DNA from: Ptychodera flava
Taxonomy: Eukaryota > Hemichordata > Enteropneusta > Ptychoderidae
Reading direction: 5' to 3'
Length of the DNA stretch: 64,000 nt
NCBI RefSeq assembly: GCF_041260155.1
Contig: NC_091944.1
Coordinates: forward strand, 19,744,772 to 19,808,771
The notes beneath the pieces are model-generated. The model made no database searches. It saw only the letters and a program-made list of their open reading frames with translations, and had not been told where the DNA came from. Below are positions 8,901-63,487 of the stretch, in pieces. A program made the translations under genes and the position numbers. The first letter of the stretch is position 1. Each line of letters opens with the position of its first letter.

Positions 8901-9441
8901 ACCAACCTTCATGGCCATGGAAAAACCCAAGTCTCCTTTAAACCAAAAGCCTGAAACCCCTGCTACTGCAAATTCAAAGTGGAGTGCATTTCTGTCAGTT
9001 TGTGAAGATGGGGATTCTCAGCAAGAAGCACAGCATTCTGGTCTTGATTCAGACAGTGAAAGCTCCCAATACGCATCAAATGCTGGCAGTATTAATGTAA
9101 GAAATAGTGGCCAAAATCAGTTCTGTTCCAAGCAGGGTGTTATTGAATCAAACATCTCAAAGTGGGACATGTTTGTCAGGAAAGACCTGTCTCATTCAAT
9201 GGCCACTCACAGCCAAACATTGGATGACTGCACCAAAGGACACCAAAGCAGGGATTTTGAAGTTTCTTCTTCATCTCCCACATGCAACATTACTCCCGCA
9301 GTACGTGACATCAGCCGTATAGGGAAATTTATTGGAAAAGACAAGGTCAATAAAACAAATCTAACTGTATCATCTACTAATTTGAAAAGCACATTTGAAG
9401 TTGATGACGAACTTGACAGTATTTTGAATGACCTTGAGTGA
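5909..9441 (+). CDS. MRNIP: MRN complex-interacting protein (MRNIP), five coding exons
   Basis: Exons 5909-6028, 6732-6902, 7477-7646, 8256-8355 and 8734-9441 join in phase to give 422 residues (human protein about 343). In vertebrates MRNIP binds the MRE11-RAD50-NBS1 complex and supports ATM signalling at double-strand breaks in the nucleus. Residues 1-58 carry the family signature: C10xxC13 and C29xxC32 as a zinc ribbon with HQVKKSKKW between them, then GTGADCRRHVQKLN. A basic REWRKRKW cluster at about 149-156, split by intron 3, matches the known nuclear signal region. The middle is acidic and Ser-rich. A K-W-x-x-F motif recurs at residues 108-112, 269-273 and 330-334, and the tail is acidic (VDDELDSILNDLE). 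The frame is open upstream of 5909, but an acceptor ending at 5890 and homology favour this ATG. Confidence 0.93.
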
Positions 9442-11877: not shown

Positions 11878-14800
11878 ATGACATCAGATAGCGACCGCCG
11901 CGAGCGGAGCTGGTTGTACTACATCGGCATCGTCGGTACAGGGGTGGTGACTTTCCCAAGTTGCTTGGGGTTGTTACAGCATCTTGTATTCAAACAACTT
12001 CATCTGAGCGCGTCTATGACGTTGTCACCTCTCCTAGGATTCGTATCAGTTGCTACCACAGGGATTATATCGTCTATCAGCATATGTGTGGTATCACCTG
12101 TATTGAAACGATTCTTGCACGACCATGGCACATCAATCAATACAGGTACAGTGCACAGGCGTACGGATGTTTCCTAGATCGTCGTCGGATGGGAAGTGAC
12201 GGACACTGCATGCACCGTGAGGCCGAAGGCCGAACCTCGGTACTGTATAACAATACAATACCGAGGTTCGGCCTTCGGCCTCACGGTGCATGCAGTGTCC
12301 GTCACTTCCCATCCGACGACGATCTAGGAAACATTCCGTACGCCTGTGGTACAGTGTGGTCATTCATTGGCAAATGTGGCAGTTCGCCAGATGCTATAAG
12401 TTGGTTATTCGTCATTGATCGACATGTTCGTTGATTCATCAAAGCATATGATAAAATATATATCATAAATGTATTAAACTTTACTTTACTTTACTTTATT
12501 GCTCAACAACACACTCAAGGAGTGTGGTAAGGCAAAAATTACAAAACTCTGCAAACACTAGAAGCTGCTGCTGGGGGAGGAACTAAAGTACAAGAAATAA
12601 TTTGGCAAGAGGTAGTTTATCTTTGTGAGTAAAGATATACATGAACTTTTCTCTGTCACTCAAATCAAGAAAGCCAGGATTATGCAAACTTGTGGATGAA
12701 AATAGACTATCTCGATAAGCTCTGTATTTTGGACATTCTATTACAAAGTGAAATTCATCCTCAACTAAAGACTTACAATACTTGGCAGTATCTTTCATTT
12801 GCAGGAACTTTTGGTATCGACCTTCTACCCAGTTCTGTTATTCTTAGTTTTTCAGCCACCTCCTATAGGTAAAAGATCTTATATCTAGCAAGTAACTTTA
12901 AAATTAAAATTTTGTCTTAAATAGTCTGTAAGTTCGGAGCTTATTCCTCTGCATTCCACACTTCCTTGTATCATATTATGAATGTTTCTCAGCCATGTTT
13001 GTTCATAAATTTCACGTAAACTATCATATACATTATTAACTGTGGAATTGATATTGCAAACACTAGACCATATATCACTCCCACTGTAAGAGCTCAATAT
13101 GCTTTGTATATAATTAGACCAATCTGAATTCAACCTGGATGTATAAGCAGATCTCAGTAAGATGACATCTGATAAAACAATCTATGCAGTATTTGAGCAT
13201 GTGCTTTATCACCATAAAGTGAATTGGATATCTACCCAGCTCTCCAACAACACCATCAGACGGTGCATGTTTAGAGACTCCTAGGATAAATCTATAATAA
13301 GATATACTAACATCATTGAGAAAGTTACACTCATCATTAATTTCATGTCCCCATATTTCACAGCCATATGTCATAATAGGAACAATTAAACTATCAAAGA
13401 GTGATAATGCAACTTTTACAGAAAGTGAACCATTTTGAAGGCCCTTACGAAGGCTGAAAAGAGCTTTCATTGCCTTCAATTTAAGATTGTGAAAATTACC
13501 TTTGAATTTACCATTTGGGGTAATGACAAAACCAAGGTAACTACTCTTTCACTAAGTCAAGAGTCACTCCATTGTAAGTGAGTGTAACTCCTTTTACAAG
13601 ATGACTACTTTTGTTGAACACAATAACTTTCGTTTTCTTTATGTTAATAGATTAAAAAGACGCATGGCTTTTGTGTCTTTTTGGCCAGGTAGATATAGAT
13701 ACACGAAAACGCTGAAGTTGTGATATGCAAAAAAGTACCTTACAGTTACACCCATGACATAAATCTCGGGGAGCTGTAATATTAAACCTTACTGCAATCC
13801 GTAGAGTAGCACCTCTCTACAGCTTGGTTGGGTTGTATCGGGGAATGGGGCACAACACACAATCGAGGGAGTGGTATGACGAAGGATCATAGGAAATTTG
13901 ACCTTAAACAGCACTAATTGGACATAAACTTAAAAGTGATATTGTACAAGAGAAAAGTGATAGATTATTTTTTCTCAATACAGGACAAAGACAACGTGAA
14001 GATGATTCAAACATCAGGTTTTTTAATCGTTGCACAGTTATTTACAATTTAAAGAAGAGGAATCTGATGCAGTTGGTACTGTTCAGTCCAGATAAATATA
14101 TACTGTGATATATTTTTGAAGTTCATATTTGGTCTCACTTTCTTGTGCTCGTAGATTCCAATACACATGATGATGACAACACTGATAAAACAGCTACACC
14201 TGAATTCATGCAATGCCTTCCTGTCTATGGTGTTGTCAGTGCTGCTGTCTTCAAGCTTTTCAATGGACATTTTAAATCTGTACTGCCAAGTGATTTGGTC
14301 AAACCAGGTAAGGAGACATGGTTTATTTTTACCGCGGCATACTTGCCTGAGTATAAGCCCCTCTCCTGCATATTGTGTTGCCAAACCAGGGGCTTATACT
14401 CAGACAAGTACCGTGCATACTGTGACATCGGTAGTGTGATGTAATCTTGCTATCATCCATTAATCTACCACTTTGTTGGTTGTGTTGTGTTGACATACAC
14501 ACAAAACCATAGACAGTGGAGTCCAAGATCTCCCGATCCACTGTCTGTGACACAACCAAGTAAGTCAGGAGCTACAAGTTGCTACAAGTTGTCAAATCAT
14601 AAGCTACCGTAGGTTTGGGTAAATTAATCAATCCATCAACAGTTTACGTGATGGTTTCTTTGCTAATATGAACAAAAATGAATTCAACGAATTTGCTTTG
14701 AACTGCGCATGGTGACTCCATCAAACTCTGCCAAAGTTCCCCAATCCTTTCAAAAACATTTGTATTCATATTCATTCATATGCTGAAGAGAGATAAACAA

Positions 14801-17800
14801 ACGAAGCAGAAAATAGACAAACTAATGCAATCGGATTGATTCAAATCACAGTTGTGAAAAAGTTAAACCAGTTCTCCCATCTGTATACATTCATTGAAGG
14901 CAATAATATTTATCTTGTAAAATCATATGTATTGCACAGTTTATTTCGTCACATTTAATCTAGATATTCTTGTGTAAAAGAGAAGAAAAATAGATAAGTC
15001 TTTAATACATCCAGGCTGAATTTCAACTTCTGCATATTGTGTCTGTCAGGTGCTTTTGCCAGAGAGAGTGTCCGTGCTACCGTGAAGTATGCAAATAGTT
15101 CTCAAAGGAAGAAAATACAGAGTATAGGAAAGCAACATGGTTGTCACAGTTGTGGAAGATGGTTGAAGGTGAAGTTTTACATCGCTGATCACCAACCACC
15201 TATAGCTGTAAGTATTCAATATATAAACTGCAAGTGATCCTGTAATTATGCTAAACATTTGATAAACAAAAAAAAAAATGGTTAGAAGTCTATGTGATAT
15301 ATTCTTTAACCTTTTCACCATCATGGTATGGTCCAATTATCAATGGGCAGTGCGGACCTGTTAAGGTAGTATGCGCCTCAACAGTGAAAGCCCTAAACTG
15401 TTGCTCAAGCTGTCCTCAAAGAGTATTTCAACCACTCTCTTTCAAAATTAAGAATGAAAAATCGGGGTTCACTGCGCAAATTTTGGAACTAGAGAAACAA
15501 ATTACCAAAGATTTACTGATATTTGAAATTCAAAATGACTGCCATCCCTATATTAAATATATGGAAGGAATATTAGATTTTTTTAAAAAGTAAGACAATA
15601 AAAAGTTTACCAAGAGCTTTAAAATGAACCCCACAAGTGATATATCAGAAAAGAATTGTAAAAGTTTGAGAGTCTGAATATCTGTCCCCGAGGCACATTC
15701 TACACAGTATGGGAAAAATTCTGATGCCCATCACAGGATTATGGCCGTACTGTACTGCAGTAAAAATTTTACAGGACTCACATGTGTAATGAACCAAGAT
15801 AAACAACTATTTGTATGATTCATTGTCAAATTTATGCCAAAATGACTTTTTGCATTGACCGGAACGTCGGTATGTATTGTTTCAGTTATTTTGTTTCTTT
15901 GTCTGTAAGGGCATATACCAGTGGAAGCATTGAATCATGTGCTGTTCATGCCATATACCGGTAGATATCACTGACTTGGTGGCAAATCAATAATTCTTTC
16001 GAAAGTAATTCATAAACTTAAAGGGGAAGTTCACCAAGGATGATTTTTACATATGTGGTAGCTCTGTGGTCATTTACCCAGGAAAAACTATTTTCACCAT
16101 TTATAACTCGCAGGATTTTTTATAAAAAACGATAAAAAGTACAGGAAGTTGCCCATGTAATTTGAATCATGGGAAAAAAGCTCCAAACTTGGAGCTTGCA
16201 TAATGTGATATGGAAGGGACCATCTTCGGATGGGTATGGCCCCCACATTGTCCACTCACAGTAACACAGTAGTAAACAGCAACACAAAATCTGACAGTGG
16301 AAAGTTTATTACAAGTGATTCATTGTTTATGCAAGGATACTCAGTATAAACAAAAATAATGTAAATACGCACAGCCTGGTTTAAGCATGGGTGAGTGGAC
16401 AATGCCATACCCATGGGAAAATGGTCCCTTCCATATCACATTATGCAAGCTCCAAGCTTGGCGCTTTTTCCCATGATTCAAATTACATGGGCAACTTCCT
16501 GTACTATTTCTATCGTTTTTTGTAAAAAATCTTGCAAGTTATAAATGGCGAAAATAGCTTTTCCGGGGTAAGTGACCACAAAGCTAGCACATATGTAAAA
16601 ATCATCCTTGGTGAACTTCCCCTTTAAAGAGCATTGTCTAACATTTCTAATACATCATATGTAAATGCCATCAATCAATATGTACATTATCGGTGAACTG
16701 TGTTTAACTTTGAAAAACTGAATGGTGTTCAAGTCGCAACCCAGTAAGACCGTCAGGCTGAATTTGAGTGAATGAATTCCAAGATTTTCAATGGTGACAT
16801 TTTAGGGAGTACACAAGGAGCATGGCACTTTGCTGTGCTGTAGGCAAGCTACTGGTTACATGAGAGTTAAGAACGTGTGTGTTAGATTCACTAAGTCAGT
16901 GGAATGCTAAGGGAGCGTTCAGTTTTTACGGCCTGGGGGGGGGGGGGCCGGCAAAATCTTGTCGCCGGTGTAAAAAAAATATAGAACCCCCCCCCTGCAT
17001 TTTCTGTGAAAAAAAGATGACCCCCCCCCCCTTTGTCAGACGAAAAAAATTGATGACCCCCCCCCCCCCCCCCCTGAAAAATAACAAAAACCCATATGTC
17101 AAATTTACCCGCATGGTTTGGATTTGAACTTCGGTACACGACACACTTTATTCGTGTAGCAGAGATGCCAGTGCACAAACTTCTCAGCCACATCCATTGA
17201 AACGTCTGTTAATTAGGACGACTGTAAGGCAATTTTTAACTTCATTTCCATAGACAACTCATGTCCATGGACATTGTATAAAGTAAACTTTATTGGAGTG
17301 GTTCGCCAAAGGCAGCCCTCCGGTTAAGAGGGTCATGGGCCATTACGTAAAGTCAACTTTATTCTAGTGGGCCACCAAAGGAGGCACGCCGGTAAAGAGG
17401 GTCGATCATGGCCATTGCATAAAGTAGACTTTACTGGACAGGGCCGCTGAAGGCGCGCGGCCATTACCATTATTCAGTGCGTGATCCCAGGGGTCCCTCA
17501 AAAATGTTTCTAATACAAGCCGCGGCTTCAATTGGGAATTTTACGGTAAGATTGCCATGGGGTATTACAAAAAGTCAATTTATTGTAGTGGGCCGCCACA
17601 GGCGGCCCGCCAGTAAAGAGGGTCAATCATGGCTATTGCATGAAGTAAACCTAATTGGAACGGCCCGCCAAAGGCGTCTGCCCGTTAGAGGGTCATGGGT
17701 AGTACATAATGTATATTTATTGTAGTGGGCCGCCGAAGGCGGCCGCCGGTAAAGAGGATCGATCATGGCCATGGCATAAAGTGAACTTTATTGTTGGTAT

Positions 17801-21183: not shown

Positions 21184-22832
21184 TTAGCTCCGCTGTCAGC
21201 GACGCGGAGCTTATCAAATAGGTTGATTTTCCGTCGTCGTCCGTCGTCGTCGTCGTCCGTCGTCGTCGTCGTCGTCGTCCGTCGTCGTCCATCAACAATT
21301 GCCTTCTCCTCTGAAACCACAAGTCCAATTGCTTTGAAATTTTATATGCAGCTCACTTGGGGTGACCTCACTTAAGTTTGTTCAAATCGTAGTGAAATTT
21401 GCATATTTGTATTTTTGGGCATTTTTTGGTGTTTTTGGTAAAAAAATCTTCTTCTCTGAAACCGCTTGTCTGATTGCTTTGAAATTTAATATGCAGTTTA
21501 CTTAGGGTGACTTCAGACAGATTTGTTCAAATTGTGGTGAAATTTGCATATTTGTATTTTTAAGGCAATTTTTGTCATTTTTGGTAAAAAAATCTTTAAA
21601 AATCTTCTCCTTCAAAACTACCAGTCAGATAGCTTTGATATTTGGTACATATGTCCCTAGGGATGATCTATTTCAGATTTGTTCAAATTGTGCAGAAATA
21701 TGCAAATTTGCATTTTTAAGGCAATTTTTGCGATTTTTGGTCAAAAAATGTATTTCTCAAAAAGTACTGGTCTGATAGTTTTGAAATTTGGCATACAGGT
21801 TTCTATAGATGAACTAAGTAATATATATTGGATTTCTGATGAAATCTGTAATTTTGTATTTTAGGGGCAATTTTTGCCATTTTTGGTCAAAAAATATGTA
21901 TTTCCAAAAGTACTCATCTGATAGCTTTGAAACTTGGTATGCAGGTTCCTACAGATGAACTAAATGATATTTGTTGAAATTATGATGAAATCTGCAATTT
22001 TGTATTTTTGGGGCAATTTTTGCCACTTTTGGTCAAAAAATGTGTATTTCCAAAACTACTCATCTGATAGCTTTGCAATTTGGTATACAGGTTCCTACAG
22101 ATCACCTTAATGATATTTATTGAAATTATGATGAAATCTGCAATTTTGTAATTTTGGGGCAATTTTTGCCATTTTTGGTCAAAAAATGTGTTTCTCAAAA
22201 AGTACTGGTCTGATAGCTTTGAAATTTGGTATACAGGTTTCTACAGATGAGCTAAGTAATATATATTGAACTTCTGATGAAATCTGTAATTTTGTATTTT
22301 TGGGGCAATTTTTGCCAATTTTGGTCAAAAAACGTTTATTTCCAAAACTACTCATCTGATAGCTTTGAAATTTGGTATAGAGGTTTCTATAGATGAACTA
22401 AATAATATTTATTCAAATTATGATGAAATCTGCAATTTTAAATTTTTGGGTCAATTTTTTCCATTTTTGGTTAAAAAATGTGTTTCTCAAAAAGTATTGT
22501 TCAACAGCTTTGAAATTTGGTATACAGGTTTCTATAGATGAACTAAATTTGATCTTTTGAAATTATGATGAAATCTGCAAATTTTATTTTTTGGGGCAAT
22601 TGTTGCCATTTTTGGTCAGAAAATTTTATTCTCCAAAAAAATACTCATCAGATAGCTTTGGTTGACATGTTCTTAGGGATGATCCAATGTGATATATTCA
22701 AAGTACAATGAAATCTTCTATGGTCACTGCATTGAGCTATCAAAGATTTCCACCTTCTTCATCAACATGTGTCAAAAATAGTTATTCTCTACATAAACAC
22801 AGCGGAGCTATATCGGCCGCTAGGTCGCTTGT
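21184..22832. mobile_element. Hairpin-headed tandem-repeat element
   Basis: The left end is a hairpin, TAGCTCCGC..GCGGAGCTT, followed by a GTCGTC-rich run (21229-21290). An array of about 147-bp units follows. The right end shows GCGGAGCTATATCGGCCGC at about 22802. The layout (hairpin head, GTC-rich run, then units with TCTGATAGCTTTGAAATTTG) resembles multi-copy repeats seen in several marine invertebrate genomes. The mechanism is unknown and no protein is encoded. Confidence 0.65.
21310..22720. repeat. Tandem array of about 147-bp units
   Basis: The word GATAGCTTTGAAATTTGG recurs near 21628, 21773, 21918, 22066, 22211, 22356, 22502 and 22650. More diverged units lie at 21320 and 21470. Each unit also has GGCAATTTTTGCCATTTTTGG. 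Middle units are the most alike and edge units the most diverged, as expected from unequal exchange. Confidence 0.88.
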
Positions 22833-23575: not shown

Positions 23576-25470
23576 TTAAAGGTATACTGTCACCTGTTCC
23601 AATCTTGCCACAGTTACCACGTCCATGGCCAGAAGTCGGGATTTTTTCATTTTAGACATTTTTACATTTTAGTAGTGCATGTTTGACATGTTAGGTCGGA
23701 ACTAACGTGACCAAAAAAGCCAATCGTGCAAACCTATCGTGTATCGTGCACGCCTAACGTGTACGGACCTAACGTGTCTAAAATGTCTAACGTGCATGTC
23801 ATTTTAGGTTTTCATCATGAGTCAAAATCTATCATGCCAATCGTGCAAACCTATCGTGTATGGTGCAAACCTAACGTGTACGGACCTAACGTGTCTAAAA
23901 TGTCTAACGTGTATATCATGACTGTACTATTCAACTTATCTGGAGACCCTAAATGACATACATGTTAGACATTTTAGACACGTTAGATACGTACTCGTTA
24001 GGTATATGTACGATACACGATAAGTTTGCACGATTGGCATGATAGACTTTGACTCGTGGACAACCTAAAATAACAAAGACGTTAGACATTTTAGACACGT
24101 TAGCTCCGTAAATCTTAGGTCGGCACGTTATACGATATGTCTCTAACTCTATCATGCCAATCGTGCAAACCTATCTTGTATCGTGCAGACCTAACCTGTA
24201 CGGACCTAACGTGTCTAAAATGTCTAACGTGTATGTCATTTTAGGTTTTCATCATGAGTCAAAATCTATCATGCCAATCGTGCAAACCTATCGTGTATCA
24301 TGCAAACCTAACGTGTACGGACCTAACATGTCTAAAATGTCTAACGTGTAGGCCTATGTCATTTTAGGTTTTCATCATGAGTCAAAATCTATCATGCAAA
24401 TCGTGCAAACCTATCGTGTATCGTGCAAACCTAACGTGTACGGACCTAACGTGTCTAAAATGTCTAACGTGCATGTCATTTTAGGTTTTCATCATGAGTC
24501 AAAATCTATCATGCCAATCGTGCAAACCTATCGTGTATCGTGCAAACCTAACGAGTACGGACCTAACGTGTCTAAAATGTCTAACGTGCATGTCATTTTA
24601 GGTTTTCATCATGAGTCAAAATCTATCATGCCAATCGTGCAAACCTATCGTGTATGGTGCAAACCTAACGTGTACGGACCTAACGTGTCTAAAATGTCTA
24701 ACGTGAATGTCATTTTAGGTTCTCAACATGAGTCAAAATCTATCATGCCAATCGTGCAAACCTATCGTGTATCGTGCAAACCTAACGTGTACGGACCTAA
24801 CGTGTCTAAAATGTCTAACGTGCATGTCATTTTAGGTTCTCCACATGAGTCAAAATCTATCATGCCAATCGTGCAAACATATCGTGTATCGTGGAAACCT
24901 AACGTGTACGGACCTAACGTGTCTAAAATGTCTAACGTGTATGTCATTTTAGGTTCTCCACATGACTCCAATTTCTATCATGCCAATCGTGCAAACCTAT
25001 CGTGTATCGTGCAAACCTAACGTGTACGGACCTAACGTGTCTAAAATGTCTAACGTGTATGTCATTTTAGGTTCTCCACATGACTCCAATTTCTATCATG
25101 CCAATCATGCAAACCTATCGTGTATGGTGCAAACCCAACGTGTACGGACCTAACGTGTCTAAAATGTCTAACGTGCAGACTTTTACAGTGTTTAGTCATG
25201 CACGTTTGCCTTACACGTTTGGGTTCTATAATGTACAATGGCATACAACTCCCCATAGCACGATAGCTTCAACAATGTGAAACGTGCATTTTACCATCTA
25301 CTGGCCATAGCTCAGTTACCATGGAAAGAGAAAATCTAACCAATCACAGATTTTAAGCGGATGGCCGCTCTTTAAAAACAGCACCCTCACATGGGCATTT
25401 TGAATACCAAGGAACGCCCTTTTGACCATATATGGTCATTATTTAGATTACAGGTGACTGTATACCTTAT
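23576..25470. mobile_element. 1.9-kb TTAA MITE carrying a minisatellite
   Basis: The left edge is TTAAAGGTATACTGTCACCTG (23576). The right edge is CAGGTGACTGTATACCTTAT (ending 25470), its complement with the last TTAA worn to TTAT. The right 200 bases match, in inverse, the small MITE at 51364-51552, including AACCAATCACAGATTTTAAG. That small copy lacks the minisatellite, so the array expanded inside a MITE. Confidence 0.85.
23690..25190. repeat. 117-bp minisatellite, about 13 units, with an inverted block
   Basis: Units carry CCTATCGTGTATCGTGC, CCTAACGTGTACGGACC and TAACGTGTCTAAAATGTC. They are forward at 23690-23930, inverted at 23950-24130 and forward again from 24140 to 25190. Within a unit, CCTA(A/T)CGTG recurs three to four times, so the 117-bp unit is built from a shorter word. 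Because 117 is 39 codons, one frame stays open for 208 residues (24394-25020); I regard this as a by-product of the period. Confidence 0.92.
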
Positions 25471-51363: not shown

Positions 51364-51552
51364 TTAAAGGTATACAGTCACCTGTAATCTAAATATGCCC
51401 ATATATGATGAAAGGGGCGTTCCTTGGTGCCATGTCCATGTGAGTGTGCTGTTTTTAAAAAGCGACCAACCGCTTAAAATCTGTGATTGGTTAGATTTTC
51501 TCTTTCCATGGTAAGTGTGGCAAAATTGGAACAGGTGACAGTATACCTTTAA
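51364..51552. mobile_element. 189-bp TTAA MITE in unit A
   Basis: It starts TTAAAGGTATACAGTCACC and ends GGTGACAGTATACCTTTAA. The unoccupied site is preserved in unit B near 53955, which confirms a TTAA insertion after the duplication. It is the short form of the element at 23576-25470. Confidence 0.92.
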
Positions 51553-52734
51553 TAATAGGACTATAATAGCGATGACGTCATGATAGAGGTGTTTTTAGTA
51601 GAATGACTTACTAGACACATTAAAACAAACAATTAAATAAATATTAGATTATAAACAAACGTGTTGGACAACGCTTGGTTTTGCAGTACCGTGATGTTCA
51701 GTAAGGTACACTGTCTTTAGCTAGCTGGGGTCATGATCCGTAATATTAGAAAGGGTAGCTTCCTTGAATAAACTGGCGGTTTGACCCAACCGTTATTTTA
51801 TGCTGGTTATATGATCCGAAAGACAGTTGTATTCTAAGTAGGTTTGGCAAAGGTAGCTGTTGGTGAAATAATAGCAATACTAGATGACAGCTGTATGCTC
51901 ACAATAAACAGAAGGCATATGAACGGTTAAGATAAATATCGTTTTAATCATCTGGGCAGTGTTACCGTCTGGTACGTCCTACTTCAGAACGGTTGTGTGG
52001 AAGGTTTGAAATAAAACACAATGGATATTTTTAAATATTTGGAACAGTCAGTTAAAAAATCGATATTAGGAACAATGGGAAGTAGTAAGCTTAATATTAC
52101 GTCTTGTTGGGTGACGTGTATATATTTGTCAACTGGCAGATGTCTAAAATTCACATATTTCCATGGTTGATATTATGGTGCTGTGTCATTTTATTGTGCC
52201 AACTATACCTGGCAGAAAGCGTCGCTCAACTATGTTATTAACCATGTTTGTTTGCTCACTTAACTTGTAAACGTGGGCAGCGCAACTCTCCGTCTTGTGT
52301 GTTGAAAAATTGAAGATTTTCATGTGTAGCTATTTGCATATCTATTGATGTCACTTTGTAAGCTAAACACCGATGACATCGCTAAGAGTGCGTGTACTAG
52401 AAATTGTGGAAATATGTCAGTACATTAACCCTATTGGTACCTAATTCTCGGAATTCTCGAGTTTTTCCATAATTCATGGAAGTGGTAAAAATAGACAGAC
52501 ATATCAATGAGATTTTATTCGACAAACTAGTCTGGTAAAGCTGTATGGCGCATCTGCTCAGGACAAACAAAGATATCGAGATATTTCGAAATGCAAGAGT
52601 CTGCTCCTGTAACGTCACAATGCGATACAAAGTTTGTTTTGGGACCGTGTTTATCAGATGATGCGTCTTCTGAACTCTTGAGGTTAATGTTAGAAATCCC
52701 TTTGTAATTTTTCTGTGTTATATTAGGAACTATG

Positions 52735-53304
52735 CTTATTTCTACCATAATAGAAACCTCGCCATAAAACTAAATCTTGATAAGGTGTACACTCTTCAAA
52801 AGAGAGCGGTACGTACGCTTTTTGAATTAGGAATTAAGAATTTCCTTCAGATGCTTCATTTTATATGTTTGATGTTATGTCAATTACACAGATAATTTTT
52901 TATATCATGGCAATGCTAAGTTTCAAATATATATGAATGGTTCTGGACCACAGTATTTATCTCATTTATTCACTCCAAATCTTAAGGAATGTTCATGATT
53001 ATTACACATGCTCTACCGCTCGTCAAGATTGTTATGTACCTAGATGTGTTTAAATGTTGGACAACGCATTTTTCATTCCCACGCCACTGAAGTGTGGAAT
53101 TCATTACCGATTGATTTCAGAGAACTATCCAGCCTGAGTACATTCAAATGCAAATTGAAAGAATATGTCAAAAGCAAAGTGCTTTGTGATTTACTTTTGT
53201 TTGTATTTAATCTTTTTCTTTTCTTGATGTATTTATGAGCCCGATCGAAATACCATTCGGCCGCTCTATAAAAGTGTAATAAATAAATAAATAAATAAAT
53301 AAAT

Positions 53305-53335
<31 letters not shown>
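52735..53335 (+). mobile_element. LINE 3' end in unit A
   Basis: Coding-like remnants read KVYTLQKRAVRTLFEL and then EVWNSLPIDFRELSSLSTFK, as in the extreme C-terminus of CR1/L2/Jockey-like ORF2. The frame is broken in several places. The fragment ends in an (AAAT)n tail at 53278-53331, the usual end of such elements. The same fragment is in unit B. Confidence 0.75.
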
Positions 53336-53925
53336 ACAAAGGTTCACGAAAGGAACTGCTGCTTAGTAGGCGAATTCAAAACATGTCGAATTCAACAATG
53401 TCATTTGGACTGTGGTGAGATGCTCGACCTCTTCTGTGTATACATGATGTCATGTAAACCTTTCTGTGGAACACCCCTGTCTGTTAATTTGAACACGGCT
53501 GTTGTTCCATTCTGCTTCTGACACCATAAAAAGATATCGGAGCTTTGAAAATACAGTCTAAGCATAAACGTACCGTCATGAATTGTGTGTCACGTGGTAG
53601 TATGATGGGTTTGCCGGGTACGAATTTTTTTTTAAGTAAAAATAAATATTTATGAATTTCAATGTCTTTCAGAGTCTGTGGCTAAGTGTTGACTCCAGTA
53701 CCACCATTTTTGATGTGTAAAAAGGAGTCATATATATGTCAGTAAAAAGTAACACCTCTGAATCGACTTAACTCAACAAAACGTTAAAAGTGTGTCGTCT
53801 GCTTCTCCTCGGCCCAAATACTATCATGCTGATTGATCGGGGACAGTCGTAAGCTCCTCGGCAAAAAGGTTTGCTGTTACTCGAATAATGAGACTAGATT
53901 TGTGCGTTTTGTTACGTGGATTTCT

Positions 53926-54288
53926 GGATCCGATAACGTGAGAGGCATACCGCCTCAATAACGGGACTATAATAGCAATGACGTAATATTACTAGAGGTG
54001 TGTTTAGTAGAATGACTTAATAGACACATGAAAACAAACAATTAAGTAAATATGTTGGACAGCGCTTGGTTTTGCATTACCATGAATTGTTCAGTTAGGT
54101 ACTCTGCTTTTAGCTAGCTGTGGTCATGATCCGTAATATTAGAAAGGGTAGCTTACTTGAATAAACTGGCGGTTTGACCCGACCGTTATTTTATGCTGTT
54201 ATATGATCCGAAAGACAGTTGTATTCTAAGTAGGTTTGGCAAAGGTAGCTGTTGGTGAAATAATAGCAATACTAGATGACAGCTGTAT
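53926..54288. repeat. Tandem duplication unit B, left part
   Basis: It matches 51325-51890 of unit A without the MITE, including GGTTTGGCAAAGGTAGCTG. It is cut at 54288 by the 6.3-kb inverted-repeat element and resumes at 60601. Confidence 0.88.
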
Positions 54289-55740
54289 TAGTCTAGTCGT
54301 AAGGTAGGGTTCCCATGCACCCTATGGATGTATTTTTTTAACTTACATTTTTGTAATCCATAGGGTCTATATTTAATGAATTTTGATGTTCCCAAAATCA
54401 AATAGTGTCCTATGGGGTTCATTTTGCGCCATCTTTGCCGCCATCTTTGCCGCCATCTTTGGTTTCAACAATGGGGTAGGGGTCACGTATTTACCGCTCG
54501 ACGGAAACAGAAACAATAAAATAACTATAACGTTACATTTTTAGAAAGCCAAGATCATGGCCTTTTCATTGATATATAACTTAATAGGGATAAATTAATA
54601 TTCGAACGTCGATTAGACTTTATATCGGCCATTGACCGTAAATCGTAAATTTGCTAAATTTCACACCCTATAATTAAGTTCCCGTTCCTCCAAACAATTT
54701 TTCATAAGGTATTTATATATTTTTTGGAAGAAATCAGTGCAATAAACAAGAAAAACAACATTAAAAGTATGTGTCTTGAGATTTAGTGGGTGCATGAGCT
54801 TGTTTTCTTATTACGCGGTATGCCATATATCCGTGTGTAACATAAGGGGTAGGGGTAATGTTACCCTTTCTGTTTCGAATCATGAATGATGAAACCATAA
54901 AAATGTTACATTGTTTGAAAGTGCTGCATCAGACCTTTTTAAAAATATATAGATTTATGGGGAAAAGTTGCATATTTAAAAGTTACAAAGCTTAAACCTT
55001 TCGGTTTGTGTCGATTTTAAGTGATTTTTTAAGACCGAAATTACAACATATGGGGTAGGGGTAATGTTTCCCTTTCTGCCTCGAACCATGAATTATGAAA
55101 CCATATAAATGTTATACTGTTTGAAAGCTCTGAAATAGGCCTTTCCAAACATGTATAGTTTTATTGGGAAAAGTCCATATTTGAAAGTTACAAAGCTTAT
55201 GCCTTTCAGTTTGTGTCAATTTTAAGTGATTTTTTAAACAAAATTATAATATAAGGGGTAGGGGTAATGTTTCCCGTTCTGCCTTGAACCATGAATTATG
55301 AAACCATATAAATGTTATACGTGTTGAAAGCTCTGAAATAGGCCTTTCCAAACATGTATAGTTTTATTGGCAAAAGTTCCATATTTGAAAGTTACAAAGC
55401 TTAAGCCTTTCAGTTTGTGTCAATTTTAAGTGATTTTTTGAACAATATGCACAAAACAGTTAGTCCGTTGGCCAGGTATCGAAATCATCCCCTCTAAGGC
55501 ATTTTACCCTCTATGATTTTCTGTTAGCTAGTATTCTCAGCTGTCATAATCTGCTTAATTTCCATTTAACTGATGGTGTGTGAGAGTGTAACGACTTGTT
55601 TGTGAAGGGCTGTCACGTAGTAAAATAGGAATGGGTTAGGGGTAACATATTTACCGCTAGTCGGAAACAAAACCAAAAAAGTACCATAAACAATACATTC
55701 TTAGAAAGCTAGAAAGCCCAGATAATCCCTTTACCATTGG
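54289..55740. repeat. Left terminal inverted repeat of the 6.3-kb element
   Basis: About 1.45 kb, complementary to 58935-60597. In order it holds the end sequence, three 12-bp-spaced GCCATCTTT motifs (54428, 54440, 54452), a GGGGTAGGGGT box, an AT-rich stretch and three 204-bp units. Just inside, 55627-56040 is a diverged direct copy of 54470-54865. Confidence 0.85.
54840..55440. repeat. 204-bp subterminal tandem repeat, three units
   Basis: GGGGTAGGGGTAATGTT recurs at about 54847, 55052 and 55256. Each unit also contains CATGAATTATGAAACCATA and CAAACATGTATAGTTTTAT. The opposite arm has four such units, which accounts for most of the length difference between arms. Confidence 0.88.
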
Positions 55741-56510
55741 TATACAACTAAATGGGGATAAATCGATATTCAACATCGATTAGATTTTATATCGGACATG
55801 AAATGTAAATTGTAAAATTTGCTTAATTTCAAACCCAATAATTAAGTTCATGTTCCTCCAAACAATTTTTACAAGGTATTTATATATCATTTGAAAGAAC
55901 TTAATGCAATAGAGAAGTAAAAAACATTAAAAGAGTGTATCTTCTTGAGACTTATGGGGTGCGTCGATTGTTTTCCTAATATATGGTATGCCGTACATCC
56001 CTCTATAATATACATTTAAGGGATAGGGGTATGGGTAATGTTTCCTCTCCTACCAAACGCAGCGAATAAGGAAGCCACATAAATATCATATCTCTGAAAC
56101 ACTAACGCAGTTGTTTTTCCAACAAGATATGGGGTAAACTCTAAAATTATGCAGTGACAATGCCTAAACTCAAAAGTTTGTGTTACTTTACTGACATTTA
56201 CTTGTTAAAAGGAACATAGAAAAATACTCTATAGGCATTAAATAGCACTAAAAATTAAAATGGTGGTTAATAAAAGACGTTTTACTCATTTCAATAACTC
56301 AAATTAGGGAAAGAAAGTTAACAGCTATAATATGTCAAAAATTATATATTCCAAACCACAAACACTAAATTGGATGTCATAGTCGTCATGCTAAGTTGAT
56401 ATGACAGCAGCAACAATCAATCCCTTTTCTTTAATTGTATCGCGAGAGATATATAAGCAATAAATCACCACTTTGAAAGGATACCACACGGTTTCGACCG
56501 GTAAACAACA

Positions 56511-56539
56511 TATACGCACGAACTTTAGTCGTGTGTATA
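56511..56539. repeat. Small hairpin in the core of the 6.3-kb element
   Basis: TATACGCACGAAC and AGTCGTGTGTATA form 13-base arms with two mismatches. Weaker outer complementarity (GGTTTCGACC / GGTCAAAACC, CCACAC / GTGGTG) extends the foldback to about 56490-56575. Confidence 0.55.
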
Positions 56540-58137
56540 AGGAGTGAAATGGTCAAAACCGAGCTCGAGTGGTGTACCCAACTTATAGGGGTTGTTTATC
56601 GCTATATTATATCAGTATATTGAAACTTGTGATGAAAATAAAAACAATGTGAAAGAAACCCACTTTGGAGATAGGAATGGCCAACTTTACAGTATATCGT
56701 AAATATATGCACAGTCACGTGACCGTCTGGGCAAATCAGAGCTCACTATTAATAGTGTTACTTTTAATACCACACGGGAACACGAGAGAATCTTTTATCG
56801 CTCAAAACCAATCACCATTAATCCACAATATAGCTTCTCCATACTAAGATAAGATGGATCGACAACACTTTACCTTCCTTACCAGAAAAGAAGAGATCAT
56901 AACCAATTTTTTGAAATTATTTTACAACGCAGAACACTATATACTCCCAATGAGGATTACATTTTCGACTGGGTACTAAAATTCAATAGCAAAATAATTC
57001 TGGAACTAAAACCCGAAAAGCCAAATGTCACAGAACGGCGAACAAACACTTTCTACATTAAGCAATAAGAAGGCGAGACAAACCTCAGAAAATGACTAAA
57101 AAGGCTTATATTCCCATTGACACCTCAATGTTTAAAATGCCTTGTGAGTGAATCTATCATTAGTTTCTTATCATGGATGACATTTAACCAATGTTATACC
57201 CTGACGTCTTTGAGCAAAGACCCTACAAACGGACGTTTTAGGGTCAATGCTTGAAGATACCATTCCCACCAGCATGATCAAATCAGAGAGACTAGATTGA
57301 TCTAACTTTCGAGCTAGATCAGCCACCAGCAGCTGAGAAAAAATAAGTCAACATAATCATCAGAGTCAAGCGAGCTAGACAACGGCTTCACACATTATAC
57401 TACACAGAGAGGACATTCTTACAATTCACAAAAAGCGTTCAAAACTTCGTTAAAGGCATTGTTCGCGATCCCAGGGACGGGCATGGCTGGTTGCGTGGCA
57501 AATGCAAAATATCAGTCATGCTGAATCAAGGTGTAATCAAGTAATAGCTTATTTATAGATTGGGAAAATCCTAATCCTGATAGTAATTATGGAATATAAA
57601 CTTTGTGAAAAGTTGAGAAAATTTGCCACTTCTTTGATTTGTATGTTTTACATTCCATGTTGTACAGTACTGCCTGTATTATACATGAACAGTCAATACA
57701 TCCGGCAAGTATTCTGTGCTGTTCTTTTATAGTTAGGTCCCCGCAGTCCGAGATAAGTCTTTCTATAGTGTCAACCATTCTCTTCGATTACTGTAATCTA
57801 CTCCAATAAATTCCCATTTAACTCATTTGTATGATTACAGGGAAGCCTAAGCCTATCTCTTACAATCTAAGATTTGAGATATTTGACAACAACATGTATG
57901 CAATTTTCATATTTTTCATAGGCCTAAATAATACATAGAATAAAGTCATACTCAATGTTTTGTCCAATTGAAAGTCAAATTTTCAACGAAACAAGTAGAG
58001 GTGGCCATATGTAAGCAAAACGAGAATTAATATTAGCAAAGATGGATATTAATTAAGCCTTTCCCATTTCCGATCCCAGTTACTCATACAACGGGATATA
58101 AGCGAAAGCCAAGAGTATCGAATGTGTTGAAACCTAA

Positions 58138-58572
58138 GTGGCCCCTATTCAGTACCACGTAGCCTACAGGTACACCTTAAAGAATACTTACCAGGCCAAA
58201 ATACCGAGTGTTGAATTCCTTCAAAAGTGGCAACACCTGGAAAAACACTGCGGCAACCAATTTATCACCCCGATCTCTAACTATTTACCTCTACACCCAA
58301 TAAAGCACCGGGACTCAAGACAGTTGTACATCACAAACTTAAGAGAGCGATCGAAGACACTCGCTACACAGAACGCAGGATGGAAGGCTGCAAAGACGAT
58401 TCTTCAAATAGGCAAAAAAGAGGCTAAAAACAACACAAACATTCACAGCAACGACGATAGGTCGGGCTTTCTTCCTATACTACGGTACAAAACCAAACCA
58501 AAGGGTCTTTCAAAGGCCATCGCACTTCCCTTAAAGCCCGGCTCGAAATGGACTAGGATCATGATTGATTAG
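58138..58572 (+). CDS. 144-codon open frame in the 6.3-kb element, function unknown
   Basis: ATG at 58138 to the stop at 58570-58572. The product is basic, with QAKIPSVEFLQKWQHLEKHC near the start and TLATQNAGWKAAKTILQIGK and KAIALPLKPGSKW towards the end. The composition looks like a real protein, and this is the longest intact frame in the element. It has no membrane segment, no cysteine-pair motif and no catalytic signature that I can name. I do not recognise the family. It is most likely an element-encoded accessory protein or the remnant of one. Confidence 0.5.
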   Translation: MAPIQYHVAYRYTLKNTYQAKIPSVEFLQKWQHLEKHCGNQFITPISNYLPLHPIKHRDSRQLYITNLRERSKTLATQNAGWKAAKTILQIGKKEAKNNTNIHSNDDRSGFLPILRYKTKPKGLSKAIALPLKPGSKWTRIMID

Positions 58573-58934
58573 TGCCAAGTTTGGTTGGGCGTTTTGGGGC
58601 ATGGCTCTGCATAATGAGTCTGTTGGTAACGGTTGCGATCGTTCGCATTATCTGCGGATCTGTTTGCTCTCAGATCACGCTTAGGCTCGGACTAATATAG
58701 ATGCCTAGATGTGAACCCCATAATAGATACGTACAGCCTTCGTTTCCAGGTTCGTTTCAGTCATGCCATGGCAAATACTCGAAATAAAAAGAAAGGAAAT
58801 CTATCAACTTAATCAAACAAGAGTTTGCTTGAATGAATTTACCGAAGTTTCAGGCCATATCAACGTTCATTGTGTGAATGATTCGGCTATGGACCGCCAT
58901 GTACATACGGAATATTGGCGCCGTCTAAAGTCGA

Positions 58935-60597
58935 ATAATTATCAAAAAAGTAAAAAGCTTATATCTGGGCTTTCTAAGAATGCATTGTTTATGGTACTTT
59001 TTTGGTTTTGTTTCCGACTAGCGGTAAATATGTTACCCCTAACCCATTCCAATTTTACTACCGAGGGCGTGACAGCCCTTCACAAACAAGGCGTTACACT
59101 CTCACACACAATCAGTTAAATGGAAAGTAAGCAGATTATGACAGCTGAGAATACTAGCTAACAGAAAATCATAGTGGGTAAAATGCCTTAGAGGGGATGA
59201 TTTCGATACCTGGCCAACGGACTAACTGTTTTGTGCATATTGTTCAAAAAATCACTTAAAATTGACACAAACTGAAAGGCATAAGCTTTGTAACTTTCAA
59301 ATATGCAACTTTTGCCAATAAAACTATACATGTTTGGAAAGGCCTATTTCAGAGCTTTCAAACAGTATAACATTTATATGGTTTCATAATTCATGGTTCA
59401 AGGCAGAACGGGAAACATTACCCCTACCCCTTATATTATAATTTTGTTTAAAATAATCACTTAAAATTGACACAAACTGAAAGGCATAAGCTTTGTAACT
59501 TTCAAATATGGACTTTTGCCAATAAAACTATACATGTTTGGAAAGGCCTATTTCAGAGCTTTCAAACAGTATAACATTTATATGGTTTCATAATTCATGG
59601 TTCGAGGCAGAACGGGAAACATTACCCCTACCCCATATGTTGTAATTTCGTTCTTAAAAAATCACTTAAAATCGACACAAACTGAAAGGCATAAGCTTTG
59701 TAACTTTCAAATATGGACTTTTCCCAATAAAACTATACATGTTTGGAAAGGCCTATTTCAGAGCTTTCAAACAGTATAACATTTATATGGTTTCATAATT
59801 CATGGTTCGAGGCAGAAAGGGAAACATTACCCCTACCCCATATGTTGTAATTTCGGTCTTAAAAAATCACTTAAAATCGACACAAACCGAAAGGTTTAAG
59901 CTTTGTAACTTTTAATATGCAACTTTTCCCCATAAATCGATATATTTTTAAAAAGGTCTGATGCAGCACTTTCAAACATGTAACATTTTTATGGTTTCAT
60001 CATTCATGATTCCAAACAGAAAGGGAAACATTACCCTACCCCTTATGTTACACACGGATATGTGGCATACCGCGTAATAAGAAAACAAGCTCATGCACCC
60101 ACTAAATCTCAAGAAACATACTTTAATGTTGTTTTTCTTGTTTATTGCACTGATTTCTTCCAAAAATATATAAATACCTTATGAAAAATTGTTTGGAGGA
60201 ACGGGAACTTAATTATTGGGTGTGAAATTTAGCAAATTTTACGATTTACGGTCAATGGCCGATATAAAATCTAATCGACGTTCGAATATTAATTTATCCC
60301 TATTAAGTTATATATCAATGAAAAGGCCATGATCTTGGCTTTCTAAAAATGTAACGTTTATAGTATTTTATTGTTTCTGTTTCCGTCGAGCGGTAAATAC
60401 GTGACCCCTACCCCATTGTTGAAATCCAAGATGGCGGCCAAGATGGCGCCAAAGATGGCGCCAAATGAACTCCATGGGACACTATTTGATTTTGGGAACA
60501 TCAAAATTCATTAAATATAGACCCTAAGGATTACAAAAATGTAGGTTAAAAAATACATCCATGGGGTGCATGGGAACCCTACCTTCCGACCCGACTA
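58935..60597. repeat. Right terminal inverted repeat of the 6.3-kb element
   Basis: About 1.66 kb, complementary to 54289-55740 and about 210 bases longer. AAGATGGC motifs at 60428, 60440 and 60452 mirror the left-arm triplet. The end reads CCTTCCGACCCGACTA. Confidence 0.85.
59240..60040. repeat. 204-bp subterminal tandem repeat, four units (right arm)
   Basis: ACATTACCCCTACCCC recurs at about 59416, 59618, 59824 and 60028. Units next to each other are more alike than units at the same position in the other arm, which fits local homogenisation. Confidence 0.88.
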
Positions 60598-60600
60598 TAT

Positions 60601-62590
60601 GCTTCACAATAAACAGAAGGCATATGAACGGTTAAGATAATATCGTTTTAATCATCTGGGCAGTGTTACCGTCTGGTACGTCCTACTTCAGAATGGTTGT
60701 GTGGAAGGTTTGAAATAAAACACAATGGAATTTTTTAAATATTTGGAACAGTCAGTTAAAAAATCGATATCAGGAACAATGGGAAGTAGTAAGCTTAATA
60801 TTACGTCTTGTTGGGTGACGTGCATATTTGTCAACTGGGAGATGTCTAAAATTCATATATTTCCATGGTGGATATTATGGTGCTGTGTCATTTTATTGTG
60901 CCAACTGGTAGAAAGCGTCGCTCAACTATGTTATTAACCATGTTTGTTTGTTTGCTCACTTAACTTGTAAACGTGGGCAGCGCAACTCTTCCGTCTTGCG
61001 TGTTTTGAAAAATTGAAGATTTTCATGTGTAGCTATTACATATCTTATTGATGTCACTTTGTAAGCTAAACACCGATGACATCGCTAAGAGTGCGTGTAC
61101 TAGAAATTGTGGAAATATGTCAGTACATTGACCCTATTGGTACCTAATTCTCGGAATTCTCGAGTTTTTCCATAATTCATGGAAGTGGTAAAAATAGACA
61201 GACATATCAATGAGATTTTATTCGACAAACTAGTCTGGAAAAGGAATTTGGCCTGTATGGTGCATCTGCTCAGGACAAACAAAGATAACGTGATATTTCG
61301 AAATGCATGAGTCTGCTCCACCAGTAACGTCACGTTGCCATACAAAGTTTGTTTTTGGACCGTGTTTTAAGATCATGTCTTCTAAACGCGTGAGGTTTTA
61401 ACAACCTTTAGAAATGTTAGAAATCCCTTTGTGTTTATATCAGGAGCTATGCTTATTTCCACCATAATGGAAACCTCGCCATAATACTAAATCTTGATAA
61501 GGTGTACACTCTTCAAAAGAGAGCGTACGTATGCTTTTTGAATTAGGATTTGAATTCCCTTCAGATGCTTTATTTTATGTTTGATGTTATGTCATTACAC
61601 AGAGAATTTTTTATATCATTGCAATGCTAAGTTTTAAATATATGAATGGTTCTGGACCACAGTATATCTCATTTATTCACTCCAAATCTTAAGGAATGTT
61701 CATGATGATTATACACGCTCTACTTTTTGTCAAGATTGTTGTGTATTTAGATGTGTTTTAAATGTTGGACAACGCATTTTTCATTCCCACGCCACTGAAG
61801 TGTGGAATTCATTACCGATTGAAATCAGGGAACTATCCAGCCTGAGTACATTCAAATGCAAATTGAAAGAATATGTCAAAAGCAAAGTGCTTGTGATTTA
61901 CTTTTGTTGTTTTTAACCTTCCTTTTCTTGTTGTATTTATGAGCCCGATGAAAATTACTTAAAATCAGTAATTCGGCCGCACTAAAAAAGTGTAATAAGT
62001 AAATAAATAAATAAATAAATAAAAACTTCCACCAAGGGAACTGCTGCTTAGTAGGTGAATTCAAAACATTTCGAATTCAACAATGTCATTTGAACTGTAG
62101 TGAGATGCTCGATCTCTTCTGTGTATACATGATGTCATGGAAACCTTTCTGTAGAACACCCTGTCTGTTAACACGGCAGTTGTTCCATTCAGCTTCTGAC
62201 ACCATAAAACCAGATATCGGAGCTTTGAAAAGACAGTCTAAGCATAAACGTACCGTCATAAATTGTGTGTCACGTAGTAATATGATGGGTGCCGGGTACG
62301 AATTTGTTTACCTAAAAATAAATATTTATGAATTTCAATGTCTTTCAGAGTCTGTGGCTAAGTGTTGACTCCAGTACCACCATTTTTGATGTGTAAAAAG
62401 GAGTCAATATATGTCAGTAAATAGTAACACCCCTGAATCGACCTCACTCAACAAAACGTTAAAAGTGTGTCGTCTGCTTCTCCTCGGCCCAAATGCAATT
62501 CATGCTGATTGATCAGGGACAATCGTAAGCTCCTCGGCAAAAAGTTTTGCTGTTACTCGAATAATGCGACTAGATTTTTGCGTTTTGTTA
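60601..62590. repeat. Tandem duplication unit B, right part
   Basis: It resumes unit B directly after the inserted element (GCTTCACAATAAACAGAAGGC) and matches unit A from about 51897 to 53925. The boundary at about 62590 is where TTTTGCGTTTTGTTACGTG passes into unrelated sequence. Confidence 0.88.
61445..62025 (+). mobile_element. LINE 3' end in unit B
   Basis: It corresponds to 52735-53335 in unit A, with EVWNSLPIEIRELSSLSTFK-type coding remains and an (AAAT)n tail near 61998-62022. Broken, and already present before the duplication. Confidence 0.72.
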
Positions 62591-63487
62591 CGTGTGATTT
62601 TACGTGGAAGCGTAAGTCACCATCCATTTAATATGTGTACAATTCTTTCAGTTTTCCGATGTTTTTGAAGTTCTGCCGTGATTACAAATGTTATGACCCT
62701 CCCAATGACACCAGAGGAGTTTTGGAAGTTAACGAAATCATGATTAACGCAAGATACGATTTCACCACTTTTAAATGAAATTGCCCCTTTGGCATTTATT
62801 ATTATAGCGCCGATGAATATTGCAGTACGTTGTTGCCTGCTCAGTGACTGCAATTTTCAGGATAGTCGGGTAAAAAGAAAGAGTTTTCCCTGCTATTTGT
62901 GGCCATCGGTCGGAACAGATGTGAGTTCCAGACAAAGAATATAAATATTGTCAGAAAAGTTGGGCGTGTAAAGGCCTATATAGTAATAACGTTACGTATA
63001 TTTAAATGAGGTCATAATTTATATGTTACAAGTGATGTTCTTTTTGCGGGACATAATATGCAAACGACCACGCCCAACACTGCACTGGTTACTTATAGTC
63101 CCGCGAGACCGAAATACTTCATCATTGTGCGCTGTTATTGGTTTGGCGCTGTAATTGAGGCACGTCAATAGATATTAGATTGAAATTGCAAGTTTTGTTT
63201 CCACTGCCCTGCTTACGCATAAATTGGTTGTGTACCGTTTACTTTTGCCACAGCTGACCCATGAGAAATACATTGCTGCCCTCCTGATCCTGTACAGGCG
63301 GCCTTGACATATCGGGGGACGTGACGAAAAAGTACCCGGATTTTCCCGCTCAAATAATTCATCTTCACCACACATAGGGGCACACACGAAGTAACGCAAA
63401 TAGCATTTCAGTTGGAGGCAGTTGTGCCGACACAGTGCTGAGATCTCGCAAACAATCCGATCCCAAAAAGTGTAAAATACAGTTGCC
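62591..63487 (+). other. Upstream region of the gene at 63488; no other gene seen
   Basis: It contains an inverted CCAAT-type box (TTATTGGTTTGG) at about 63136-63147, roughly 340 bases before the next start codon. The 111-codon frame on the minus strand (63175-63510) overlaps the start of the next gene and has no recognisable motif. Confidence 0.4.

Follow-up and report, generated by a model that had tools for sequence, protein, structure and literature searches.

A probable non-autonomous transposon of foldback architecture and its paralogous empty site in the hemichordate Ptychodera flava

Results

Borders, target duplication and empty site

We analysed a 64,000-nucleotide stretch of the Ptychodera flava genome (assembly GCF_041260155.1, contig NC_091944.1, positions 19,744,772 to 19,808,771; hereafter the window, with position 1 at its first letter). 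Within it, a head-to-tail tandem duplication of ~2.4-kb units spans 51535-62600, and a 6309-bp element with the termini TAGTC...GACTA lies within unit B only. The features that define the insertion are as follows.

54289..60597, no strand assigned: whole element, TAGTC...GACTA (empty-site comparison and phase test)
54286..54288, + strand: left target duplication, TAT (empty-site comparison and phase test)
60598..60600, + strand: right target duplication, TAT (empty-site comparison and phase test)
51894..51896, + strand: unoccupied target TAT in duplication unit A (empty-site comparison)
51535..53923, + strand: tandem duplication unit A, without the element (93.6% and 95.3% identity to the element's two flanks)
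53938..62600, + strand: tandem duplication unit B, split by the element (flank alignment)

The left flank (53938-54288) aligned to 51535-51896 with 320 of 342 aligned bases identical and 7 gap events, and the right flank (60598-62600) to 51894-53923 with 1858 of 1949 aligned bases identical and 39 gap events. The empty site in duplication unit A reads GACAGCTG-TAT-GC without interruption, running straight through GACAGCTGTATGC, while unit B has TAT on either side of the insert. Barring a loss of the element from unit A that left no trace, this comparison places the insertion after the tandem duplication.

Six boundary phases (-3 to +2) were compared, and a 3-bp duplication combined with matching ends was obtained in the given phase only. 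The terminal bases in this phase (TAGTCTAGTC / TAGTCGGGTC) match at 8 of 10 positions, against 0-3 matches in the other five, and boundary phases other than TAT were thereby ruled out. The duplicated TAT, whose 3-bp length is read from a single insertion, lies in the target context CTGTATGC. With up to 3 mismatches allowed, the terminal 20-mer matched the two outer ends only in the whole window (0.01 matches expected; mean of 100 shuffles), and blastn found no further element sequence in the remainder of the window. The original prediction, in which an insertion ends in TAGTC and duplicates TAT at its target, was borne out by the empty-site comparison and by this single phase of six, and the borders, arms, repeats and empty site were confirmed as first described.

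Anatomy of the arms

The two ends of the element are long inverted arms that are largely composed of repeats. Their features are listed below.

54289..55709, + strand: left arm, 1421 bp (98.0% identity to the right arm in reverse complement)
58969..60597, - strand: right arm, 1629 bp (inverted-repeat alignment)
54427..54459, + strand: three YY1-like sites (CGCCATNTT), 12 bp apart (motif match)
60428..60460, - strand: three YY1-like sites (CGCCATNTT), 12 bp apart (motif match)
54470..54837, + strand: outer arm unit A (co-linear with ~204-bp unit L2 over ~140 bp)
54838..55445, + strand: three ~204-bp units in tandem, L1-L3, with GGGGTAGGGGTAA close to the start of each (repeat and motif scans)
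59237..60049, - strand: four ~204-bp tandem units, R1-R4, of which R3 is the extra one (repeat and motif scans)
55630..56018, + strand: A', a diverged copy of outer arm unit A that runs from the left arm into the core (78.6% identity)
56019..56220, + strand: R', a diverged copy of a ~204-bp unit inside the core (local score against L3)

The arm-to-arm alignment contained 1385 identical positions among 1413 columns and 14 gap events, one of which corresponds to the entire extra 205-bp unit of the right arm. Read inward, each arm comprises a ~180-bp terminus with the three YY1-like sites, outer arm unit A, the ~204-bp units, a further segment of ~180 bp outside these units and finally the beginning of A', at which the inverted repeat stops. 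The arms of ~1.5 kb with ~204-bp repeats that were first proposed therefore stand, refined to a left arm of 1421 bp with three units and a right arm of 1629 bp with four. The 98.0% identity of the arms, set against 93.6-95.3% for the duplication units, fits an insertion that came after the duplication, although arms kept alike by homogenisation would give the same picture.

A form of GGGGTAGGGGTAA lies at or near the start of every ~204-bp unit, with at most 2 mismatches in all but R1, whose motif is short of one base and was recovered with a looser pattern. With up to 2 mismatches allowed, the motif was listed 16 times in the window, and 12 of these entries fall at 11 places that lie in A', R' or the arms; the other four, in the core (58285) and outside the element (40300, 43666 and 45726), all had 2 mismatches. 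Units that correspond by position across the arms were 98.5% (L1-R1), 99.0% (L2-R2) and 97.5% (L3-R4) identical, compared with 82.4-93.9% among L1-L3 and 83.1-96.6% among R1-R4. As units match by position across the arms better than they match their neighbours within an arm, the unit array appears to predate the point at which the arms became copies of each other, with one unit gained or lost later. The extra unit R3 is nearest to L2 (98.0%), a pattern expected from unequal exchange, and this process would most simply explain the gain or loss.

The outer arm copy (54470-54832) and its counterpart at 55630-56000 were 78.6% identical, the latter reaching on the left side beyond the inverted repeat into the core. 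R' aligned to L3 with a local score of 46, compared with a mean of 17.6 (standard deviation 2.2) for 60 shuffles. No counterpart of A' or R' was found beyond the end of the right arm. We read A' and R' (55630-56220) as older, diverged copies. Because outer arm unit A is co-linear with L2 over ~140 bp, a large part of the arm seems to derive from a single repeat by expansion.

YY1-like sites, for which the motif definition of PMC7481187 was used, were concentrated in the arms: six of the seven occurrences of CGCCATNTT in the window fall in the two arms, and the seventh is at 28224. Outside the element, scanning of two YY1-like patterns yielded GCCATCTTG at 38889 and CGCCATNTT at 28224, and no others. 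The sites of the element are motif matches only, and a promoter role for them is conjectural.

Coding capacity of the core

Between the arms lies a core of 3.26 kb.

55710..58968, no strand assigned: core without recognisable coding function (no Pfam match above the cut-off; frame-length shuffles)
58138..58572, + strand: longest core open frame, 144 amino acids from stop to stop (list of open reading frames and shuffles; no IMG/VR relatives)

Pfam searches of the six read-through frames of 55711-58962 gave nothing above the cut-off, the sole hit being Golvesin_C (E 0.47), so that the original description of a core without a recognisable transposase holds. Against PHROGs, four of the six core frames gave weak hits, five in total and all to families without a known function (best E 0.026), which were taken as chance, and the three + frames of the six gave one hit against PDB sequences (E 0.96), likewise taken as chance and leaving nothing credible there. 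Two open frames of the core had no relatives in IMG/VR, and Pfam searches of two frames of the element gave hits below the cut-off only (best E 0.047).

An open frame of 144 amino acids was reached by 11 of 300 shuffles of the whole core and by 4 of 300 shuffles of 57900-58700, and frames of at least this length occur in 5 of 19 core-sized pieces of the window, the core itself among them. Three-base periodicity ranged from 0.88 to 1.56 in core windows and reached 2.63 in arm windows, giving no support for a coding core. On the + strand, A exceeded T in nine of nine 600-base windows over 55801-58800 (A 0.32-0.38, T 0.23-0.32). Since the core has no Pfam match, its longest frame lies within the range of the shuffles and periodicity is unsupportive, the element looks non-autonomous.

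Searches in sequence collections

Exact scans of IMG/VR and GTDB for the terminal 20-mer and for the ~204-bp unit motif found neither, and a motif common to outer arm unit A and A' and a 45-base stretch of the ~204-bp units were both absent from IMG/VR; by blastn, the left arm had no match among plasmids and the whole element none among phages. These collections are not meant for animal genomes, and such blanks say little.

Other features of the window

A frame at 6672-7031 matches Pfam MRNIP (E 2.7e-10), which is an animal gene, and this match by itself makes an animal origin of the window most likely. A 267-amino-acid frame at 8638-9441, itself without a family match above the cut-off, could be an exon further on in that gene. 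Pfam was run on 28 of the 39 open reading frames of at least 100 amino acids in the window (8 at E up to 1 and 20 at E up to 0.1); besides MRNIP, hits to these 28 were below the cut-off or fell in the frame 24352-25020. In the latter, which lies in a 117-bp array, Herpes_UL73 and DASH_Ask1 pass the curated cut-off while no single stretch does, and both were dismissed as artefacts. Rfam at gathering scores gave nothing in the window.

A ~600-bp element at 16022-16623 has inverted repeats (121-nt arms, 92%, TTAA included) with the ends AGGGGAAGTTCACC and is flanked by TTAA (16018-16021 and 16624-16627); it looks like a Kolobok-type miniature inverted-repeat transposable element. At 12167-12334, two 82-nt arms with 99% complementarity and a 4-nt spacer make up an almost perfect hairpin, which may be a palindrome or result from fold-back in the assembly. 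Tandem arrays are located at 21303-22660 (146-bp units) and 23679-25200 (117-bp units), ~1 kb apart, and a ~1.2-kb tandem duplication (78-1984; 95-99% identity in three listed pieces) is found at the start of the window.

Discussion

Relation to known families

We class the element as a terminal inverted repeat (TIR) transposon of foldback architecture, unassigned as to superfamily. It has inverted terminal repeats with a short flanking target duplication, as class II TIR elements do, and long arms with internal tandem repeats, as foldback elements do. The nearest published element that we found, by architecture, is Tetris, a foldback transposon of Drosophila virilis that is described as having arms of up to 1735 bp, ~220-bp tandem repeats and no apparent coding capacity, and whose authors suggest that it belongs to Mutator (PMC4079207). 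As described, Tetris shares with the present element an outer flanking domain, tandem repeats in variable number, an inner domain and a non-coding middle, and a 37-bp stretch of its tandem repeats resembles the flanking domain, comparable to outer arm unit A and the ~204-bp units here. This likeness is one of description and not of sequence, and Tetris makes target duplications of 8-10 bp, unlike the 3 bp observed here. The 3-bp length also sets aside Mutator-type foldback elements (Tetris and Muta1), for which published descriptions give 8-10 bp.

Galileo, of the P superfamily in Drosophila, also has long, internally repetitive arms, and its repeat number can differ between arms (PMC4168063). 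Its THAP domain is described as binding the long arms near the end, with further binding sites in the tandem repeats, which its authors propose supply specificity (PMC3688188). Unlike Galileo with its THAP transposase, the present element yielded no THAP domain in the Pfam search of the core. Galileo duplications are 7 bp long.

Two further systems show partial likeness. Tc4 has a fold-back structure and a 3-bp duplication, and the Tc4 group is described as duplicating TNA within CTNAG (PMC11071193); the TAT within CTGTATGC found here led us to reject it. YY1 sites (CGCCATNTT and GCCATCTTG) are reported in the arms of lancelet ProtoRAG, where YY1 acts on transcription and recombination (PMC7481187). 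In contrast to ProtoRAG, which encodes RAG1-like and RAG2-like proteins, no such proteins were found in the Pfam search of the core. ProtoRAG ends differ from those of the element, and its duplications are 5 bp long. The shared YY1 site is a lead and not a sign of kinship.

Among families compared by their ends and duplications, CACTA/EnSpm agrees in the 3-bp duplication, but the plant annotation guide consulted gives CACTA or CACTG ends for it, against TAGTC...GACTA here, and TAA or TTA duplications for PIF/Harbinger, against TAT (PMC10741241); both were rejected. Pangu, NuwaI and NuwaII (PHIS), described with ANT, CWG or TNA duplications, were rejected on the TAT in CTGTATGC. Zator shares the 3-bp target duplication (PMC10045372). 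In the core, no Pfam match above the cut-off to a Zator-type (ISAzo13-related) transposase was found; a non-autonomous member would lack one too. Chapaev3 and Academ make duplications of 3 or 3-4 bp. By duplication length, Zator, Academ and Chapaev3 remain candidates. Repbase is described as filing non-autonomous elements by duplication length and the first 11 terminal bases (PMC4455052). No foldback element combining TAGTC ends with a TAT duplication came up in the titles, abstracts and passages covered; terminal sequences are not text-searchable, so this is no claim of absence from print. The original statement that the element fits no nameable family thus holds for the families tested, while the foldback architecture itself is known (Tetris, Galileo) and the misfit is partly a matter of the limits of the search.

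Weighing the explanations

We regard the element as most probably a class II cut-and-paste transposon with foldback architecture, non-autonomous or long dead, in an animal genome. This reading is favoured by the exact 3-bp duplication relative to the empty site, with symmetric ends in that phase only, by the confinement of the terminal 20-mer to the outer ends, by the positional matching of repeat units across the arms, by the higher identity of the arms than of the duplication units, by the lack of a coding domain in the core and by the published parallels with Galileo and Tetris. A version of this reading, whose odds overlap with it, holds that the transposon was once autonomous and that its core carries its own transposase, now decayed or of a family that Pfam lacks. 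The excess of A over T on the + strand in the nine core windows speaks for such a gene, an A excess being often shown by transposase genes, and the 144-amino-acid frame is marginal against the shuffles. The six frames without a Pfam match above the cut-off, the three + frames without a credible PDB hit, the unsupportive periodicity and the presence of frames as long in 5 of 19 core-sized pieces point the other way; moreover, with arms still 98% alike, decay after insertion alone would hardly have erased a gene. On balance we regard a decayed or Pfam-less transposase in the core as unlikely.

Long arms flanking an unrelated core would also be expected if 3.2 kb of host DNA had been carried along between two independent elements facing opposite ways, but the terminal 20-mer is present at the outer ends only and not at the inner edges of the arms, on which ground we rejected this composite as very improbable. 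Slightly less credible still is an inverted duplication or assembly artefact that is not a transposon at all: replication errors or misassembly can create long inverted repeats, but the insertion is clean relative to a paralogous empty site and has a 3-bp duplication, and the 28 mismatches between the arms, together with the extra repeat unit in one of them, show that they are not one sequence assembled twice.

Several observations weigh against a non-autonomous cut-and-paste transposon as proposed here, or against parts of its history. Thirteen of the 28 arm mismatches are clustered in the outer 200 columns, a degree of clustering reached in none of 20,000 permutations, and this is the reverse of the expectation under selection on the terminal sites; because the mismatches pile up there, the inner arms may have been homogenised after the ends began drifting. 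The 28 mismatches comprise 9 transitions and 19 transversions, for which we offer no explanation. R2 and R4 differ at 16 columns, and R3 sides with R2 at 9 of these, with R4 at 5 and with neither at 2, a mixed match with no single switch point that leaves a single clean exchange unsupported. A transposase gene broken up by numerous frameshifts or introns, or belonging to a family that Pfam lacks, could escape detection in the core. With a single copy, both family status and the 3-bp length are without replication, and no autonomous partner was seen.

Proposed mechanism

For the non-autonomous transposon, we infer movement by cut-and-paste with a transposase that would be encoded elsewhere in the genome, by an intact relative, and would act on the element in trans. 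The transposase would recognise the terminal ~25 bp and probably also bind the repeated GGGGTAGGGGTAA...TTTCCC sites of the long arms, a step borrowed from Galileo. The two ends would then be paired, and the element would be excised and inserted where the target had been cut with a 3-bp offset between the strands; repair would turn this offset into the TAT duplication. The element would have landed in unit B once the ~2.4-kb tandem duplication existed, and recombination would keep the arms alike and alter the number of units.

It is improbable, in our estimate, that the element represents an undescribed animal superfamily that would be characterised by TAGTC ends, by a 3-bp duplication without palindromic symmetry and by arms made up largely of diverging ~204-bp binding-site repeats, with an undescribed transposase and with YY1 acting as in ProtoRAG. 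The type of element is itself known, and what is unusual about it is that long, repeat-built arms occur together with a non-palindromic duplication of 3 bp.

The paralogous empty site allows the borders and duplication length of a long foldback-type element to be read without guesswork. The finding suggests that the foldback design, with its long tandem-repeat arms, also occurs with a 3-bp-duplicating transposase, and such a pairing would support the proposal made for Galileo that the arms give the transposase its binding specificity (PMC3688188). If the family is active or abundant, its long arms could seed inversions and satellite arrays, as described for Galileo and Tetris.

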